Assembly: GCF_029360725.1 (NCBI RefSeq)
Contig: NZ_JARKMY010000001.1
Coordinates: 1,364,001-1,428,000, forward strand
Source of the DNA: Chryseolinea sp. H1M3-3
GTDB taxonomy: Bacteria > Bacteroidota > Bacteroidia > Cytophagales > Cyclobacteriaceae
Direction: 5' to 3'
DNA: 64,000 nucleotides
A program made the translations under genes and the position numbers. Shown piece by piece: positions 29,654 through 42,619 of this stretch; within the stretch, counting starts at the first letter, position 1; each line of letters begins with the position of its first letter. Under the pieces are notes generated by a model. The model saw only the letters and a list, made by a program, of their open reading frames with translations, did no database searches and was not told the DNA's origin.

Positions 29654-32092
29654 TTATATGCCGTCTGAGATGAAAATCCGCTTTACCCGCTCACTAACCT
29701 GGGTTAAGATTTCGTAAGGTATGGTCTTCAACTTCTCTGCCATTACTTGAATCGGTAAATCATCTCCGAAGATGATAACTTCGTCTCCTTCCTGGGCATC
29801 GGTGTCGGTAATGTCGACCATCGTCATGTCCATGCAGACATTTCCCATCACTTTTGCACGGCGCCCGCCAATCAAAACTTCTCCCACTCCGCGGCTAAGA
29901 CCCCGACTAAAACCATCCGCATATCCAATGGCAATGGTTGCAATTTTTAAATCCCTGTCCGCAACACCTTTTCGCCCGTAGCCTATGCTCTCGCCCTTCG
30001 GAACACGCTTAATTTGTGAAATAACAGTCTTTAGGGTTGCCACAGGTTTTAGATCCGTAAAATTTTCCTGCGTGGGGTCTACCCCATAAAGTCCTATACC
30101 TAATCTTACCAGATCGAATTGAAGATGCGGTAACCTCAAGATTCCCGGAGAATTCAATATATGATATAATGGTTTGTAAGAAAGTGAGGCCGAGATGTAA
30201 TCAGCGCACTCTTTAAACAAAGCTGCCTGACGATTGGAAAATTCATCATGATTATGCTCATCGGCCCCGGCCAAGTGACTAAAAATCGAGGCGACTCGAA
30301 TATTAGGATGGGCTTTTAACAATTGAGTGACGTCCGGAAGATCCTGCTTTTCAAATCCCAGGCGGTGCATGCCTGTATCTAGCTTTAAGTGAATGGAGCA
30401 TGATCTCTCTTTCAGGTATTGAATGAGCGCGTGAAAGATTTTGAAATTAAAGATTTCGGGCTCAAGATTATAACCGGTCAGCGAATCAAAACTATCTTCT
30501 GAAGGATTCATTACCATGATTGGCACCGTAATATTATTCTTTCGCAAATCAACACCCTCATCAACATAAGCTACCCCTAAGTAATCCACTTTATGATATT
30601 GGAGGATATTGGCAACCTCTGGGCTACCGCTTCCATAGGCAAATGCCTTTACCATTACCATTATTTTGGTTTCAGGCTTTAATCGGGCTTTAAAGAAATT
30701 AAGATTATGAACCAAAGCGCCTAAATCGATCTCCAATACCGTACCATGGACTTTGCGCTGTAAGCGCTTGGCGATATTTTCAAAAGCAAAAGTGCGGGCG
30801 CCTTTTATCAGCACTATTTCCTCGGAGATAGAGGACAGGTTAAAATGATTTAAGAATTCGCCTGTGGAATTATAGAAGATTGAATTAGGCGGAAAGAGTG
30901 CTCGATGGTTTGTCAACACCGGACCTATTCCAATGAAATTTTGTACGGGATATTTTTCTAAAAGAGTTAGTATTTGACGGACCAATGCTCCGTCTGATAA
31001 TCCAGATTCCAAAATATCCGAGAGAATCAACCGCTTCCTGCTTTTCTGATTTTGATGCATCAAAAATTGCAGGCTTAATTCCAATCCACCCAGGTCATTG
31101 TTATAAGTGTCGTCGATAATGTAGGATTGATTGATACCCTCCTTCATCTCCATTCTCATGGGAACTGATTGTAAGCTATTAATTGCTCGCTGAATTTTTT
31201 TGAAATTGAAACCCAGATATAACATCAGCGTCACACAATGCAGGCAATTCTCGATGGAAGCCTTATCAAAGAACGGTAACCGAAGCATATGATTTTGGCC
31301 CGATTGAGTGATATAACAGGTGCTCCCCTGGATGGATACACTAACATCAGCCTCATTTTCAATAGCCCATGAAAAAGTCTTCAACTTGTTTTGCTCAACA
31401 GCTTTTCTAACCTCGAAATGATCTGAACAATAAATCAGAACATCTGAATTTTTAAAGAGCTTAAGTTTTTCTTGGATTTTTTGTTCCTGGTTTGGAAAGC
31501 CTTCATCATGAGCTGAACCAATGTTGGTGAGAATTCCAATAGTAGGTTGAATCACGTTTTCCAGATTGTCCATTTCACCTGGTTTGGAAATGCCAGCCTC
31601 AAATATTCCCAACTGATGATGAGATTTCATTTGCCACACCGACAACGGAACGCCTACCTGCGAATTGTAGCTGCCCGGGTTTTTCACAACGACTTGATCT
31701 TTTGAAAGAACCTGAAAGAGCCATTCCTTGATAATTGTTTTTGCATTGCTTCCGGTAATTCCAATAACTGGATAGGAAAACTGTTTTCTGTGGAACGCTG
31801 CGATTTTCTGAAGCGCGTCAACGGCAGATGGTACTATTAAAATATTTGCTTCGGGGAAATCGGCCAAGTGTAATGTTGGTTGCTCGACTACAAATTGCCG
31901 CAGCCCTGCCCTATACAATTCCCTCAGAAATGCGTGACCGTCGTGCCGCTCGCCCTTGATTGCAAAAAAAAGAGATCCAGGTCCTGCCGAGGCTTTTCGG
32001 CTATCAATAAAAATGGATTCAATAGGACCGTCTGTATTACGTTGGAGATTCTTACCTCCAGTTATTGCCTCCAGTTGTGAGAAGTAAATCAT
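29654..32092 (-). CDS. Bifunctional MurF (UDP-MurNAc-tripeptide:D-Ala-D-Ala ligase) / alanine racemase
   Basis: An 812-residue fusion joining two steps of peptidoglycan precursor synthesis, an arrangement typical of Bacteroidota. Residues 1-445 are a Mur ligase: the ATP loop near 108-115 reads ITGSNAKT, then FEAGISKPGEM, NIGSAHDEGF and IIDDTYNNDLGGL. Residues about 448-812 are a fold-type III PLP alanine racemase: VMVKAFAYGSG near 479 with the PLP lysine, HLKLDTGMHRLGF, SHLAGADEH, and the second-base region RLGIGLYGVDP. The P-loop has Ala where Gly is usual. csaA ends two bases upstream on the same strand. Confidence 0.93.
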   Translation of the reverse strand: MIYFSQLEAITGGKNLQRNTDGPIESIFIDSRKASAGPGSLFFAIKGERHDGHAFLRELYRAGLRQFVVEQPTLHLADFPEANILIVPSAVDALQKIAAFHRKQFSYPVIGITGSNAKTIIKEWLFQVLSKDQVVVKNPGSYNSQVGVPLSVWQMKSHHQLGIFEAGISKPGEMDNLENVIQPTIGILTNIGSAHDEGFPNQEQKIQEKLKLFKNSDVLIYCSDHFEVRKAVEQNKLKTFSWAIENEADVSVSIQGSTCYITQSGQNHMLRLPFFDKASIENCLHCVTLMLYLGFNFKKIQRAINSLQSVPMRMEMKEGINQSYIIDDTYNNDLGGLELSLQFLMHQNQKSRKRLILSDILESGLSDGALVRQILTLLEKYPVQNFIGIGPVLTNHRALFPPNSIFYNSTGEFLNHFNLSSISEEIVLIKGARTFAFENIAKRLQRKVHGTVLEIDLGALVHNLNFFKARLKPETKIMVMVKAFAYGSGSPEVANILQYHKVDYLGVAYVDEGVDLRKNNITVPIMVMNPSEDSFDSLTGYNLEPEIFNFKIFHALIQYLKERSCSIHLKLDTGMHRLGFEKQDLPDVTQLLKAHPNIRVASIFSHLAGADEHNHDEFSNRQAALFKECADYISASLSYKPLYHILNSPGILRLPHLQFDLVRLGIGLYGVDPTQENFTDLKPVATLKTVISQIKRVPKGESIGYGRKGVADRDLKIATIAIGYADGFSRGLSRGVGEVLIGGRRAKVMGNVCMDMTMVDITDTDAQEGDEVIIFGDDLPIQVMAEKLKTIPYEILTQVSERVKRIFISDGI

Positions 32093-38303: not shown

Positions 38304-39416
38304 TTGAAAAATGTAATTATAATCGGAGGGGGCATTTCTGGATTGTTAACCGCAATCCAACTTACAAGTGCGCTAATTCCTACGATTGTAATTGAAAAAA
38401 AAAATTACCCGTTTCACCGGGTCTGTGGAGAATATATTTCAAATGAAACAGTGCCGTTTCTTAGATCACTCGATCTATTTCCAGAAAATCTCAACCCTCC
38501 CTTTATTCGGCGGTTTCAATTGTCTTCTATGAATGGAAAGAACCAAATCCTTCCTCTCGATCTCGGAGGATTTGGAATTAGTCGCTATACATTTGATAAT
38601 TTGTTATACGAGCGCGCTAAAATGTTAGGAGCTACTTTTCTATTAAATGAGGAAGTTGAAAAATGTTCTTTCGACCATGAAAGGTTTAAGCTAACAACGA
38701 CATCAACACAATTGGAAGCAGACGTAGTTGTAGGCGCTTTTGGCAAGCGCTCTAAAATGGATATGCATCTTCAAAGAAATTTTATTAACAAAAGATCTCC
38801 CTATGTCGGCGTTAAATATCATATTAAGACTGATCATTCCAACGATCTCATCGCTCTTCATAATTTTAAAGGAGGGTACTGTGGCATTAGTAATGTAGAA
38901 GGGGATAAGACAAATCTATGCTACCTGACTCACCGCGACAACATCCGACAACATAAAAGCATCCGGGAAATGGAAGAAGCGATTATGTTCAAGAATCCTT
39001 TGCTAAAAAGTATTTTCAAAAACTCACAATTTCTTTTTAATAAGCCTGAAACGATCAATGAAATTTCTTTTGAAACCAAATTGCCCGTTGAAAATCATAT
39101 TTTAATGACCGGAGACGCTGCTGGTATGATCACCCCACTCTGTGGTAATGGAATGGCAATGGCAATGCATTCATCTAAAATCTTAAGTGAACTAATCATC
39201 GACGAGTTCGCGAAAACAAATTTCAACAGGGAGATACTGGAAAAAAAATACGTTATGAAGTGGAATGCACTTTTCAGAAGACGACTTTGGTTCGGGAGAC
39301 AAGTACAAAAACTATTCGGAAATGAATGGGCCTCTAACCTCACCGTTAACCTTGCTATAAATGTACGTCCGCTTGCTCAGTTGATTATTAAAGGCACGCA
39401 CGGGAAACCGTTCTAA
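38304..39416 (+). CDS. FAD-dependent oxidoreductase of the geranylgeranyl-reductase/UbiH type (polyketide locus)
   Basis: A 370-residue flavoprotein. It opens with the dinucleotide-binding motif IIIGGGISGLL, then VIEKKNYPFHRVCGEYIS near 30-47 (the Arg-Val-Cys-Gly-Glu-Tyr pattern of the geranylgeranyl-reductase group), VVVGAFGKRS near 140, and LMTGDAAGMITPLCGNGMAMAMHSS near 267-290, which binds the FAD ribityl chain. It could hydroxylate or oxidise an aromatic ring, or reduce a prenyl chain. The start is uncertain: TTG at 38304 begins right at the FAD motif; a GTG at 38226 would add 26 residues. It is the first gene of the locus with UbiA, type III PKS and methyltransferase. Confidence 0.8.
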   Translation: MKNVIIIGGGISGLLTAIQLTSALIPTIVIEKKNYPFHRVCGEYISNETVPFLRSLDLFPENLNPPFIRRFQLSSMNGKNQILPLDLGGFGISRYTFDNLLYERAKMLGATFLLNEEVEKCSFDHERFKLTTTSTQLEADVVVGAFGKRSKMDMHLQRNFINKRSPYVGVKYHIKTDHSNDLIALHNFKGGYCGISNVEGDKTNLCYLTHRDNIRQHKSIREMEEAIMFKNPLLKSIFKNSQFLFNKPETINEISFETKLPVENHILMTGDAAGMITPLCGNGMAMAMHSSKILSELIIDEFAKTNFNREILEKKYVMKWNALFRRRLWFGRQVQKLFGNEWASNLTVNLAINVRPLAQLIIKGTHGKPF

Positions 39417-39443
39417 AGAACTCCTTGTCTAAAGAACTCCTTG
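39412..39443 (+). repeat. 16-base tandem duplication at the stop codon of the oxidoreductase gene
   Basis: TCTAAAGAACTCCTTG occurs twice head to tail, at 39412-39427 and 39428-39443. The first copy contains the TAA stop. It looks like a recent small duplication. Confidence 0.85.
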
Positions 39444-39572
39444 GTTGTTGATTATACTCTACACCAAAGGCCAAAAAATTTTCATTCATAAATAAATAAT
39501 CGGCCTTCTTTTACAGAAAAGTCAACTAGAAGCTCAGGTACATTTTTTGTCATGCTTGAACTAAAAAACACT

Positions 39573-39827
39573 ATGGCAAAATATTCAAAAACCGCACAAA
39601 AAAAAGTGAAGAAAGCTATGCACGAAAAGAAGCGTGGCACATTGAAAAGTGGGAGAAGTGGAAAAAAGGTTACGAGCCGAAAACAGGCGATAGCTATTGG
39701 CCTATCGGAAGCTCGGAAAAGGGGAGCAAAAGTTCCCAAAAAAGCTGCGAAGAAAGCCGGTAGAAAAGCTGCAAAGAAGTCGCCAAAGAAAACGGGAAGA
39801 AAAACCGCTAAAAAGAGAAGCCGGTAA
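39573..39827 (+). CDS. Lysine-rich DUF6496 protein (histone H1-like tail)
   Basis: An 84-residue, very basic protein. Residues 1-55 read as a DUF6496 domain: MAKYSKTAQKKVKKAMHEKK, LKSGRSGKKVTSRKQAIAIG, LSEARKRGAKVPKK. The C-terminal 30 residues are Lys-Ala-rich repeats (KKAAKKAGRKAAKKSPKK), like histone H1 tails and bacterial nucleoid proteins. It probably binds DNA. The ATG at 39573 is preferred over one seven codons upstream. It stands between the oxidoreductase and UbiA genes and need not belong to their pathway. Confidence 0.85.
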   Translation: MAKYSKTAQKKVKKAMHEKKRGTLKSGRSGKKVTSRKQAIAIGLSEARKRGAKVPKKAAKKAGRKAAKKSPKKTGRKTAKKRSR

Positions 39828-39832
39828 TCTTG

Positions 39833-40726
39833 TTATTGAAAGGCTTGCAAAATATGAGTCGAGTCAAGGAATAAATAAAGAAAGAAGATGTTTAAGCAAG
39901 TCGCTGAAATAAAGTTTAGCCACATTGTATGTCTATAGTCGGCTTTTGTTTCATCACGGAATACAAGGAAGAACCAAATGAAAAAATAAACGATAACGGG
40001 AAAGAGCGCAGCAAAAAAAACCACGACATATTTCACTGAAAAAAAGGTAAAGAAGTAGAGGACAAACCCTACAGTAACGATTGAAAAAGTAGCACCAACA
40101 AAATAGAATGTACCACGAATCCCCAGGCTTCTGCTGAGGGTTAAGTCGCCACGCTTCTCATCTTCATCATGTTGATAAATTTGAGTCATGGGGTAGTTCG
40201 CCCAAAGCATAACAGTGGACAGGATTCCCGGAACTAGAACGGTCGGCTTAAACACATTTTCTATTTCGTAGTTATTAATGCCAATGTAACACATCATGAA
40301 TGTAAATAAACCTTGAAATAGCCCCGCTACAATCCAACTGGTGATAGGATATTTTTTTAGCCTGATGGCTGGATGGCTGTATGCTTTGGAGACAAGACCA
40401 TAAACAAAAAGCATCAAGGCAAATGTGATATTCACGTAAATAATTGCCAGCCCAATGGCCAAAAGGTCAAAGAGTAAGGACAAATAATACAATCCCTTAT
40501 TCACAGGAGGAGGATTTTGTAACCCCCCAATGCTTTTCTCATCTTTATCAAAATAACTGTTGTATCCATTGCTCGCGGGATAAAGGAAAATATGAACGAT
40601 GATGAACGTCCATAGCAATTGTTTGGTACTGATGTTAGGGGAGATGGCCAGACTAAAAAGAAAGACAGGAAGTAAAAAATAGGAAAAGGGAATGCGTAAA
40701 TGAAGCCATGAAGAGGAAGAAAACAT
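39833..40726 (-). CDS. UbiA-family prenyltransferase (polyketide locus)
   Basis: A 297-residue integral membrane protein with eight or nine hydrophobic helices. The first Asp-rich site is SNGYNSYFDKDEKS near residues 52-65 (Asn-x3-Asp-x-Asp), and the second, YQHDEDEKRGD, is near residue 190. These bind the magnesium-diphosphate of an isoprenoid donor. The protein should attach a prenyl chain to an aromatic acceptor in the membrane, as in quinone synthesis. It is divergent from the type III PKS gene, with 73 bases between, so the two probably share a regulatory region. Confidence 0.88.
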   Translation of the reverse strand: MFSSSSWLHLRIPFSYFLLPVFLFSLAISPNISTKQLLWTFIIVHIFLYPASNGYNSYFDKDEKSIGGLQNPPPVNKGLYYLSLLFDLLAIGLAIIYVNITFALMLFVYGLVSKAYSHPAIRLKKYPITSWIVAGLFQGLFTFMMCYIGINNYEIENVFKPTVLVPGILSTVMLWANYPMTQIYQHDEDEKRGDLTLSRSLGIRGTFYFVGATFSIVTVGFVLYFFTFFSVKYVVVFFAALFPVIVYFFIWFFLVFRDETKADYRHTMWLNFISATCLNIFFLYLFLDSTHILQAFQ

Positions 40727-40799
40727 GTTGCGAAATTTATGACAGCAGCCGTTGAACCGCTTTCCCTAAATTATGGTTTTTTGACTTATATTGAAATTA

Positions 40800-41903
40800 A
40801 TGAGTTTTATCACTGCTATAGGGATTGCCAATCCTCCTAATAGATTTAGCCAAACCGAGATTGCCAACTTTATGGTAAAGGCAATGCAATTAAATCAAAA
40901 TGAAAGCCGACTCCTTCAGACCATATTTAAGGCCAGTGGAATAGATTACAGGCATTCTGTTTTAGAAGACTATGGCAAGGATAAGGATTTCAAATTCTAT
41001 TCGAATGCTGCGGACTTTGAACCTTTTCCAACAACGGAGATGCGGCTATCTGTTTTCCGTAAACACGTTGTCGATTTAAGTGCGCACGCAATAGATAACA
41101 TGTTACAATCAGTGCCTTCTTTTAATGTCCAACAGGTCACACATCTAATTGTTGTTTGTTGCACGGGCATGTATGCACCAGGCTTGGATATCGATCTGGT
41201 TAAAAGATATAATCTGGCTCCTTCGGTTCACCGCACGGGAATAAATTTCATGGGATGTTATGCTGCATTCAATGCCATTAAGGTAGCTGACGCATTTTGT
41301 CACCAAGATGAGCACGCAAAAGTTCTCATTGTCTGCACTGAACTTTGCAGCTTACATTTTCAGAAGAAACCCACGGAGGATAATTTACTGGCAAATGCGT
41401 TATTCGCTGATGGATCTGCTGCGATTCTCATCGAGTCCAGAACTCAACAGGCAGTTAGGCTTAAGCCGGAAAGTTTTCACAGTTCGCTAATGGCAAGCAG
41501 CGAACAAGACATGGCATGGACCATTGGCGATCTTGGGTTTGAAATGAAGCTATCAACGTATGTCCCTTCAATTATAAAAAATGGAATCGCAGAACTCACC
41601 GACACGCTTCTGACTAAAATCTCCAAAAAAATTTCTGACATTCAGTACTTCGCGATTCATCCTGGCGGAAAGAGAATTCTGGAAAATATCGAAGTTGCGC
41701 TGGGGATTGCACCTGAAAAAAATTTACCGGCATATTGTGTATTAAGGAATTATGGAAACATGTCGTCGCCTACAATTCTTTTTGTGCTTCATACCATTTG
41801 GAAACAAATTCAGGAGAAAGATCAAAACCAACACATATTAAGTTTTGCTTTTGGTCCAGGGCTAACGTTAGAAAGTATGGTTTTGAAAATAGAGATGAAC
41901 TAA
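40800..41903 (+). CDS. Type III polyketide synthase (chalcone-synthase-like)
   Basis: A 367-residue ketosynthase homodimer-type enzyme. The catalytic triad is complete: Cys153 in INFMGCYAAFN, His287 in FAIHPGGKRI and Asn320 in RNYGNMSSPT. Other family marks are VVCCTGMYAPGLD near 118-130 and LFADGSAAILIE near 201-212. It should extend a starter acyl-CoA with malonyl units and cyclise to a resorcinol, phloroglucinol, pyrone or naphthalene-type ring. The ATG at 40800 is chosen over a TTG three codons upstream. Its TAA stop shares a base with the ATG of the methyltransferase gene. Confidence 0.93.
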   Translation: MSFITAIGIANPPNRFSQTEIANFMVKAMQLNQNESRLLQTIFKASGIDYRHSVLEDYGKDKDFKFYSNAADFEPFPTTEMRLSVFRKHVVDLSAHAIDNMLQSVPSFNVQQVTHLIVVCCTGMYAPGLDIDLVKRYNLAPSVHRTGINFMGCYAAFNAIKVADAFCHQDEHAKVLIVCTELCSLHFQKKPTEDNLLANALFADGSAAILIESRTQQAVRLKPESFHSSLMASSEQDMAWTIGDLGFEMKLSTYVPSIIKNGIAELTDTLLTKISKKISDIQYFAIHPGGKRILENIEVALGIAPEKNLPAYCVLRNYGNMSSPTILFVLHTIWKQIQEKDQNQHILSFAFGPGLTLESMVLKIEMN

Positions 41904-42619
41904 TGCCAGACTTAACCAAAAGATCAAGCGAGCTTGAGATTATGGATGACCTCACCTGCGAGGGTGAAACGCTGAATCAGACCCTCCGTGAACTCGAGTT
42001 TATCAATAAGTGGCTCGGCGGAAATCAAATAACCATTAACGCAATCTCAGAGTTGCTAGAATCTCACCCTCGGGATGCCCGGCCAATAACTATTGTAGAT
42101 CTTGGATGTGGAGGTGGTGAGATGCTAAGAGTAATCGATACGTGGGCAAAAAAAAATAGTCGGAGATTTAATCTTATTGGGGTCGATGCCAATCCTTACA
42201 TTATTGGCTTTGCAAAAAAAAATCTGAAGGATCTTTCACATTTGCAATTTGTAGCCATGGATATTTTCAGTGAGGAATTTAGCAACCAAAGATATGATAT
42301 CGTCATCGGCACACTGTTTTATCACCATTTTTCAGATGCACAGCTAATAGGTTTTTTCAAGCAACTAAGAAATCAAGTTAACCTTGGTTTTATCATTAAT
42401 GATATCCATCGCCACTGGCTTGCTTATCATTCAATTAAAATGCTTACGCATTTTTTCTCGAAGTCTTCCATGGTCAAGTATGACGCTCCGCTTTCTGTTA
42501 GAAGAGCGTTTAAAAAGGATGATTTAATAAAAATATTATCGGAAGCAAAGATCGATGAATTCAAAATCAATTGGAGATGGGCCTTCCGTTGGCAGGTTAT
42601 TGCGAAGATATCTGGTTAA
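41903..42619 (+). CDS. SAM-dependent methyltransferase coupled to the type III PKS
   Basis: A 238-residue class I methyltransferase. It has the SAM loop ITIVDLGCGGGEMLR near 62-76, LIGVDANPYIIG near 91-102, FVAMDIFSEEF and DIVIGTLFYHHF near motif IV. The ATG at 41903 overlaps the PKS stop (TAATG), so translation is coupled and the enzyme very likely methylates the polyketide or the derived quinol. A longer frame exists upstream inside the PKS gene and is rejected because it only reads the overlapping gene out of frame. Confidence 0.88.
   Translation: MPDLTKRSSELEIMDDLTCEGETLNQTLRELEFINKWLGGNQITINAISELLESHPRDARPITIVDLGCGGGEMLRVIDTWAKKNSRRFNLIGVDANPYIIGFAKKNLKDLSHLQFVAMDIFSEEFSNQRYDIVIGTLFYHHFSDAQLIGFFKQLRNQVNLGFIINDIHRHWLAYHSIKMLTHFFSKSSMVKYDAPLSVRRAFKKDDLIKILSEAKIDEFKINWRWAFRWQVIAKISG

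Follow-up and report, generated by a model that had tools for sequence, protein, structure and literature searches.

What do a type III polyketide synthase (PKS) and a membrane prenyltransferase make together in a member of the Bacteroidota? The question is raised by positions 38304-42619 of the window, by which we mean the whole 64,000-nucleotide stretch analyzed from Chryseolinea sp. H1M3-3 (contig NZ_JARKMY010000001.1, positions 1,364,001 to 1,428,000). There, a PKS gene is clustered with genes for a UbiA-superfamily prenyltransferase (hereafter UbiA), a flavin adenine dinucleotide (FAD)-dependent oxidoreductase and a class I S-adenosylmethionine-dependent methyltransferase. There is strong support for a single pathway formed by the four genes; judged from sequence, its product in many Bacteroidota is very probably a fat-soluble phenol or quinone that bears a prenyl group. 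More specifically, we assign a probability of about 0.6 to a membrane-soluble, prenylated and methylated alkyl-hydroquinone/quinone lipid as the predicted product of the four enzymes.

All four genes are open frames placed as in a first-pass annotation of the window, and most of its description of the layout is confirmed. The PKS (40800..41903, plus strand) scores 85.5 and 88.1 bits with Pfam Chal_sti_synt_N and Chal_sti_synt_C against a cut-off of 27, placing it among type III PKSs. Its Cys153/His287/Asn320 triad, described as intact, is invariant in 17/17 and in 100/100 aligned PKSs, the larger alignment leaving out 7 of 107 loci that have no PKS in their open reading frame (ORF) list. The methyltransferase gene (41903..42619, plus strand; PF13649, 44.4 bits against a cut-off of 27) starts within the PKS stop, in the overlap TAATG (41901..41905, plus strand) that had been reported; its nearest model, PRK06202, matches at 143.5 bits, below that model's cut-off of 243. 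On the minus strand, the UbiA gene (39833..40726; PF01040, 63.8 bits against a cut-off of 34.2) diverges from the PKS gene across 73 bases (40727..40799), again as described, and this head-to-head order is seen again on locus maps of relatives. The FAD oxidoreductase gene (38304..39416, plus strand, TTG start; PF01494, 42 bits against a cut-off of 22) probably encodes an aromatic-ring monooxygenase.

The case for a single pathway comes from co-occurrence. We searched 295 genomes of the class with E cut-offs of 1e-50 for the PKS, 1e-20 for UbiA, 1e-25 for the methyltransferase and 1e-50 for the flavoprotein. The PKS is present in 54 of them, accompanied by UbiA in 54/54, the methyltransferase in 53/54, the flavoprotein in 49/54 and all three in 48/54; seven genomes have UbiA without a full PKS match, and 234 have neither gene (Fisher 7.6e-52 for the PKS-UbiA association, with kinship ignored). 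In 49 of the 54 genomes, no more than 5 kb separates UbiA from the PKS, and in 38 all four genes are close together. In a UbiA-first search of a titled genome collection, the 593 pattern matches include at least 582 that encode relatives; among the best 80, which were analyzed, 72 loci have a PKS in the fetched stretch and 59 have all four genes, while the other 8 have a PKS elsewhere in the genome (8/8). Genomes in which the PKS and UbiA are not linked also have both genes, in every case tested (5, the 8 from the UbiA-first search, and 6). The class co-occurrence and the UbiA-first counts put the arrangement far beyond chance. Sought together in other Bacteroidota genomes, the four families are kept together, which supports the earlier proposal of a single pathway, most likely to a prenylated, methylated aromatic.

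Conservation extends across the phylum. PKS relatives occur in 28/39 near relatives (E <= 1e-60) and in 83/296 phylum genomes (E <= 1e-40), and the UbiA matches in this phylum sample (47/296 genomes) all fall within the 83 PKS genomes. Locus maps cover 107 loci selected by PKS, including 7 where the ORF pick missed the PKS and tblastn supplied it; because the ORF pick misses some genes, the ORF-based counts are lower bounds. By these counts, UbiA is found at a minimum of 34/107 loci, the methyltransferase at 87, the flavoprotein at 81 and all four genes at 26, each figure to be read as at least; the PKS-methyltransferase-flavoprotein trio without a linked UbiA is found at 52/107. Gene order varies with the group. 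In the window's family, the flavoprotein gene is commonly followed by the divergent UbiA-PKS pair and the methyltransferase gene; other groups have UbiA, PKS, methyltransferase and flavoprotein genes running in one direction, and another class of the phylum has PKS, methyltransferase and flavoprotein genes in that order without a linked UbiA. In a quick unrooted tree of the 107 PKSs, a branch (SH-aLRT 94) separates the 45 UbiA-associated ones from the rest, and their genomes all have UbiA: 34 linked, 5 known elsewhere, and 6/6 on a later test. The other 62 PKSs have no linked UbiA, and in 26 of those genomes, all from a single family, a distant UbiA is encoded elsewhere.

The trio also occurs without a linked UbiA. 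A PKS match is found in 49 plasmid records, and the four that were opened (from four genera) all carry the PKS-methyltransferase-flavoprotein core by annotation; tblastn at 1e-5 found no UbiA on plasmids. Because the flavoprotein and methyltransferase accompany the PKS at 52/107 loci and at 4/4 plasmid loci without a linked UbiA, we link both enzymes to the ring product of the PKS. A second lineage of PKSs in Bacteroidia (15 weaker matches in the class search) has adjacent FAD oxidoreductase and methyltransferase genes in 8/15 and UbiA in 1/15. At seven of its loci (L228-L233 and L236), a flavoprotein-methyltransferase-PKS order is followed by a FabF-like gene (7/7), with FabZ-like (6/7), phosphopantetheinyl-transferase-like (6/7) and SDR-like (4/7) genes; these neighbors were called mostly by eye from first residues, with profiles run on the L229 genes and the L230 SDR. 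These neighbors apparently form a dedicated starter-chain set, and the FabF-like genes favor fatty-acyl-type starters for the flavoprotein-methyltransferase chemistry.

What the analysis establishes is the gene content, the family assignments, the co-occurrence and an intact PKS triad; every reaction, the order of the reactions, the starter, the prenyl length and the product class are predictions. The type III PKS would extend an acyl starter, probably fatty acyl, by malonyl units and cyclize it to an alkylresorcinol-type ring. The flavoprotein would hydroxylate the ring towards a hydroquinone, the methyltransferase would add a methyl group to oxygen or carbon, and in the membrane the UbiA enzyme would join an isoprenyl chain to the ring, at oxygen or carbon. 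This would give a prenylated, methylated alkyl-hydroquinone, oxidizable to a quinone.

A counterpart of this gene set is agqABCD of Actinoplanes missouriensis, whose prenyltransferase is reportedly of the UbiA type and whose original study is said to be Awakawa 2011. In the passages of PMC10896814, PMC7692728 and PMC7093587, this four-gene set includes a type III PKS (AgqA) and yields alkyl-O-dihydrogeranyl-methoxyhydroquinones, a name implying an alkylresorcinol that has been prenylated, hydroxylated and methylated. Unlike the window, agqABCD belongs to another phylum, and the likeness is one of descriptions, in passages that do not give gene-by-gene roles. A cluster whose product requires all four functions is nevertheless already described, and the Bacteroidota cassette is a variant within that kind, so that the first-pass statement of no described product for this exact set is not supported. 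With its genes for a PKS, prenyl transfer, hydroxylation and methylation, the window agrees with an agq-type cluster at the level of family content. The three families of the hid/srs/pkq type of trio are likewise clustered in the window, the srs genes being those we take to be lettered srsABC.

Passages of PMC10896814 and PMC8086630 describe a methyltransferase, an FAD oxidoreductase and a type III PKS together, as in the window, for the hierridins (hidABC, cyanobacteria) and for Planctomycetota, with the PKS making an alkylresorcinol; compared by description, these trios differ from the window in having no prenyltransferase, except for one hierridin-like cluster, in Raphidiopsis mediterranea (PMC8086630). 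The srsABC and pkqABC sets (Streptomyces, Mycobacterium) also combine a type III PKS, a methyltransferase and an oxidoreductase and convert the ring to a quinone, but PMC9927152 names no prenyl step and shows a respiratory role, whereas the window is known from its genes. Trios in the literature yield long-chain alkylresorcinols or alkylquinones in the passages of PMC10896814, PMC8086630 and PMC9927152. A quinone ring made by a PKS is already published as the polyketide quinones (PMC9927152), so the ubiquinone- or plastoquinone-like route with a PKS-derived ring suggested for the window has a precedent in its ring, although the word 'prenyl' is absent from that paper. The losA locus of Micromonospora endolithica resembles the window in having UbiA and methyltransferase genes beside a type III PKS; it differs in that an acyl-CoA dehydrogenase replaces the FAD oxidoreductase and the isolated products are unprenylated alkylresorcinols, according to passages of PMC7587189. 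Within Bacteroidota, a type III PKS cluster is listed for Fulvivirga kasyanovii in PMC12565237, whose passages assign close MIBiG homologues to just two clusters, neither of them this one; type III PKS clusters are counted in Flavobacteriaceae (PMC10734526), and passages of PMC13141999 and PMC8730385 add nothing on prenylation. Among the papers listed in the literature searches, with subscription journals mostly outside their reach, no Bacteroidota product of this cassette appeared.

UbiA proteins of these cassettes form a distinct subfamily with degenerate Asp motifs, while both the PF01040 profile and the fold place the window protein in the UbiA superfamily. Canonical UbiA enzymes carry NDxxDxxxD and DxxxD. 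Here, N56, D60 and D62 of motif 1 are kept in 45/45 sequences and the third Asp in 1/45, while motif 2 reads Q185-H-x-E-D189 in 45/45, with Gln replacing the first Asp; the first-pass claim that both Asp-rich motifs are present is contradicted by this pattern. Among curated NCBIfam models, the sole match of the window protein at E <= 0.01 is BchG, at 15.4 bits against a cut-off of 212.3. The genome encodes five UbiA-family proteins, and because the other four pass the cut-offs for MenA, CyoE, EboC and PRK12872 prenyltransferases, all of which the window protein misses, it is not the menaquinone enzyme, a candidate role we rejected given the separate MenA.

The observations that weigh against a prenylated, methylated alkyl-hydroquinone or quinone concern the PKS pocket, the UbiA motifs and the completeness of the gene set. 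The closest PDB profile matches of the PKS are Steely1 and PKS18, and in alignments Cys183 corresponds to PKS18 Cys205 and Cys121 falls at the inferred position of the second active-site thiol of THNS. For an alkylresorcinol synthase, with its long-chain starter and aldol cyclization, the pocket residues are mixed: the bulkier His186 and, mostly, Phe187 replace PKS18 Asn208 and Ala209, and the match with the starter pocket of the long-chain enzyme PKS18 is partial. Trp240, invariant in 100/100 PKSs, aligns with CHS Gly256 and THNS Tyr224, the former a position where bulk narrows the pocket in small-starter enzymes (passages of PMC6274091). With a small starter, the prenyl chain would be the only long tail and the product would truly resemble ubiquinone or plastoquinone, but with a ring of polyketide origin, an outcome also favored by DpgA being the best curated family match and by a figure legend that names acetyl-CoA as the polyketide-quinone starter (PMC9927152). 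We consider it plausible but unlikely, as the DpgA match reaches 152.2 bits against a curated NCBIfam cut-off of 425 (on which we rejected a 3,5-dihydroxyphenylacetyl-CoA synthase), long alkyl chains are described in the cited passages for the srs lipids and for the trios of Planctomycetota and of the hierridins, and FabF-like genes adjoin the second PKS lineage. Trp240 speaks for neither a resorcinol nor a pyrone, because the pyrone synthase PKS11 likewise carries Trp at this position in the alignment; a call from one residue (ArsB Trp281/ArsC Gly284) was dropped for the same reason and because that residue could not be placed. With its changed motifs, the UbiA enzyme might differ from canonical members in its donor or its activity.

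If the flavoprotein were a prenyl-chain reductase rather than a ring hydroxylase, the same genes would give a different product. The first pass had grouped it with geranylgeranyl reductases and UbiH; geranylgeranyl reductase (TIGR02032) is its best NCBIfam match, and the agq product name includes a dihydrogeranyl group in the passages cited above. The match, however, scores 94.2 bits, below the cut-off of 158.8, which weakens that grouping and led us to reject membership of the curated family; the geranylgeranyl reductase 3oz2 is at rank 36 by Foldseek E-value, after halogenases and hydroxylases; and the trio loci without a linked UbiA, plasmids included, also argue against chain reduction, although less so given the 26 genomes of one family that have such loci and hold a distant UbiA elsewhere. 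We regard a chain reductase as distinctly improbable; the protein probably fits an aromatic monooxygenase better. A halogenase, giving a chlorinated or brominated prenylated phenol, would suit the Foldseek ranking but is very unlikely: the WxWxIP stretch that marks flavin-dependent halogenases was not found, GYCGISN aligning to GWVWMIP of CmlS and G191-Y192-C193-G194 being invariant in 37/37. Association by chance or as operon neighbors, with no common pathway, would fit the differing gene orders and the 10/107 loci whose ORF list shows none of the other three genes, but has a probability close to nil, as membership is kept despite the varied order and no PKS genome in the class sample is without UbiA, linked or not. 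Gaps in the set do occur. The flavoprotein was not found in five of the 54 PKS genomes, of which G547 is 56% complete, G582 has a methyltransferase gene running off the contig end, and G401, G474 and G579 look complete; the methyltransferase was not found in one (G034). These absences are soft, because only up to 6 to 9 candidates were scored per genome. Of 61 class genomes with UbiA, 7 lack a PKS match at 1e-50. In G586, a partial PKS adjoins UbiA at the end of a contig; the draft genome G633 is 61% complete and matches the PKS weakly (7.3e-31); and the remaining five have weaker UbiA matches (E 1.3e-33 to 1.3e-61). In the phylum sample, a single family, f35, supplies 26 of the 47 UbiA matches, all distant copies not linked to the PKS; they carry little weight because that family nearly always has the PKS (85/92).

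The product of the cassette is probably important to its makers, because UbiA is present in 54/54 class genomes with the PKS. Roles as a redox carrier, an antioxidant, a membrane lipid or a signal lipid are candidates, none of which we put forward with confidence. A bolder and rather unlikely extension is that Bacteroidia make a second quinone beside menaquinone, polyketide-ringed and prenylated, through a UbiA subfamily whose own metal-binding motif would serve a polyketide acceptor; such a quinone would parallel, in Gram-negative bacteria, the polyketide quinones of actinobacteria and would act as a redox carrier or membrane antioxidant. PKS-UbiA carriers include Chryseolinea serpens, Chryseotalea sanaruensis, Algoriphagus, Belliella, Marivirga, Roseivirga and Fulvivirga kasyanovii, and the named strains among C. 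serpens, Algoriphagus, Belliella, Marivirga and F. kasyanovii make direct testing feasible.

Several smaller observations concern UbiA. The EboC-type protein above its curated cut-off in the window's genome is at L214 (G000:C2:422387-423010). Twelve unlinked-UbiA neighborhoods, inspected by eye, include two with a similar-sized neighbor that has no Pfam match. At L220:6939-7745, a UbiA gene that belongs to this subfamily but is unlinked adjoins a second methyltransferase gene, whose product comes closest to phthiotriol methyltransferases without reaching their cut-off, and a thioredoxin-domain gene lies downstream of the unlinked UbiA in one family (one locus checked). In-frame stops occur in UbiA matches of G610, G585, G515, G600, G579, G547, G633, G474 and G433, possibly reflecting frameshifts, decay or alignment beyond the gene end.

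Other observations concern the surroundings of the cassette. The first-pass list of four enzymes stands, but it had left unmentioned a gene for a small DUF6496 protein (39552-39827) between the FAD oxidoreductase and UbiA genes; no ORF of matching size and strand occupies this position in the other mapped loci, as judged from maps without a profile check. In another class, a MATE efflux transporter gene (L067:6560-7900, the one locus profiled) lies just upstream of the PKS-methyltransferase-flavoprotein genes; its ORF cluster is found in 36/107 loci, and export of the cassette product by this transporter is possible. A sigma-70-family gene (regions 2 and 4; L033:7419-7934) directly follows the PKS gene in one relative. 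Two contigs titled Candidatus Anammoxibacter (L197, L207) carry a Bacteroidota-type cassette, probably through binning contamination, or else by transfer. Elsewhere in the window, positions 29654-32092 hold a single 812-aa ORF that, by eye, resembles a MurF-alanine racemase fusion.

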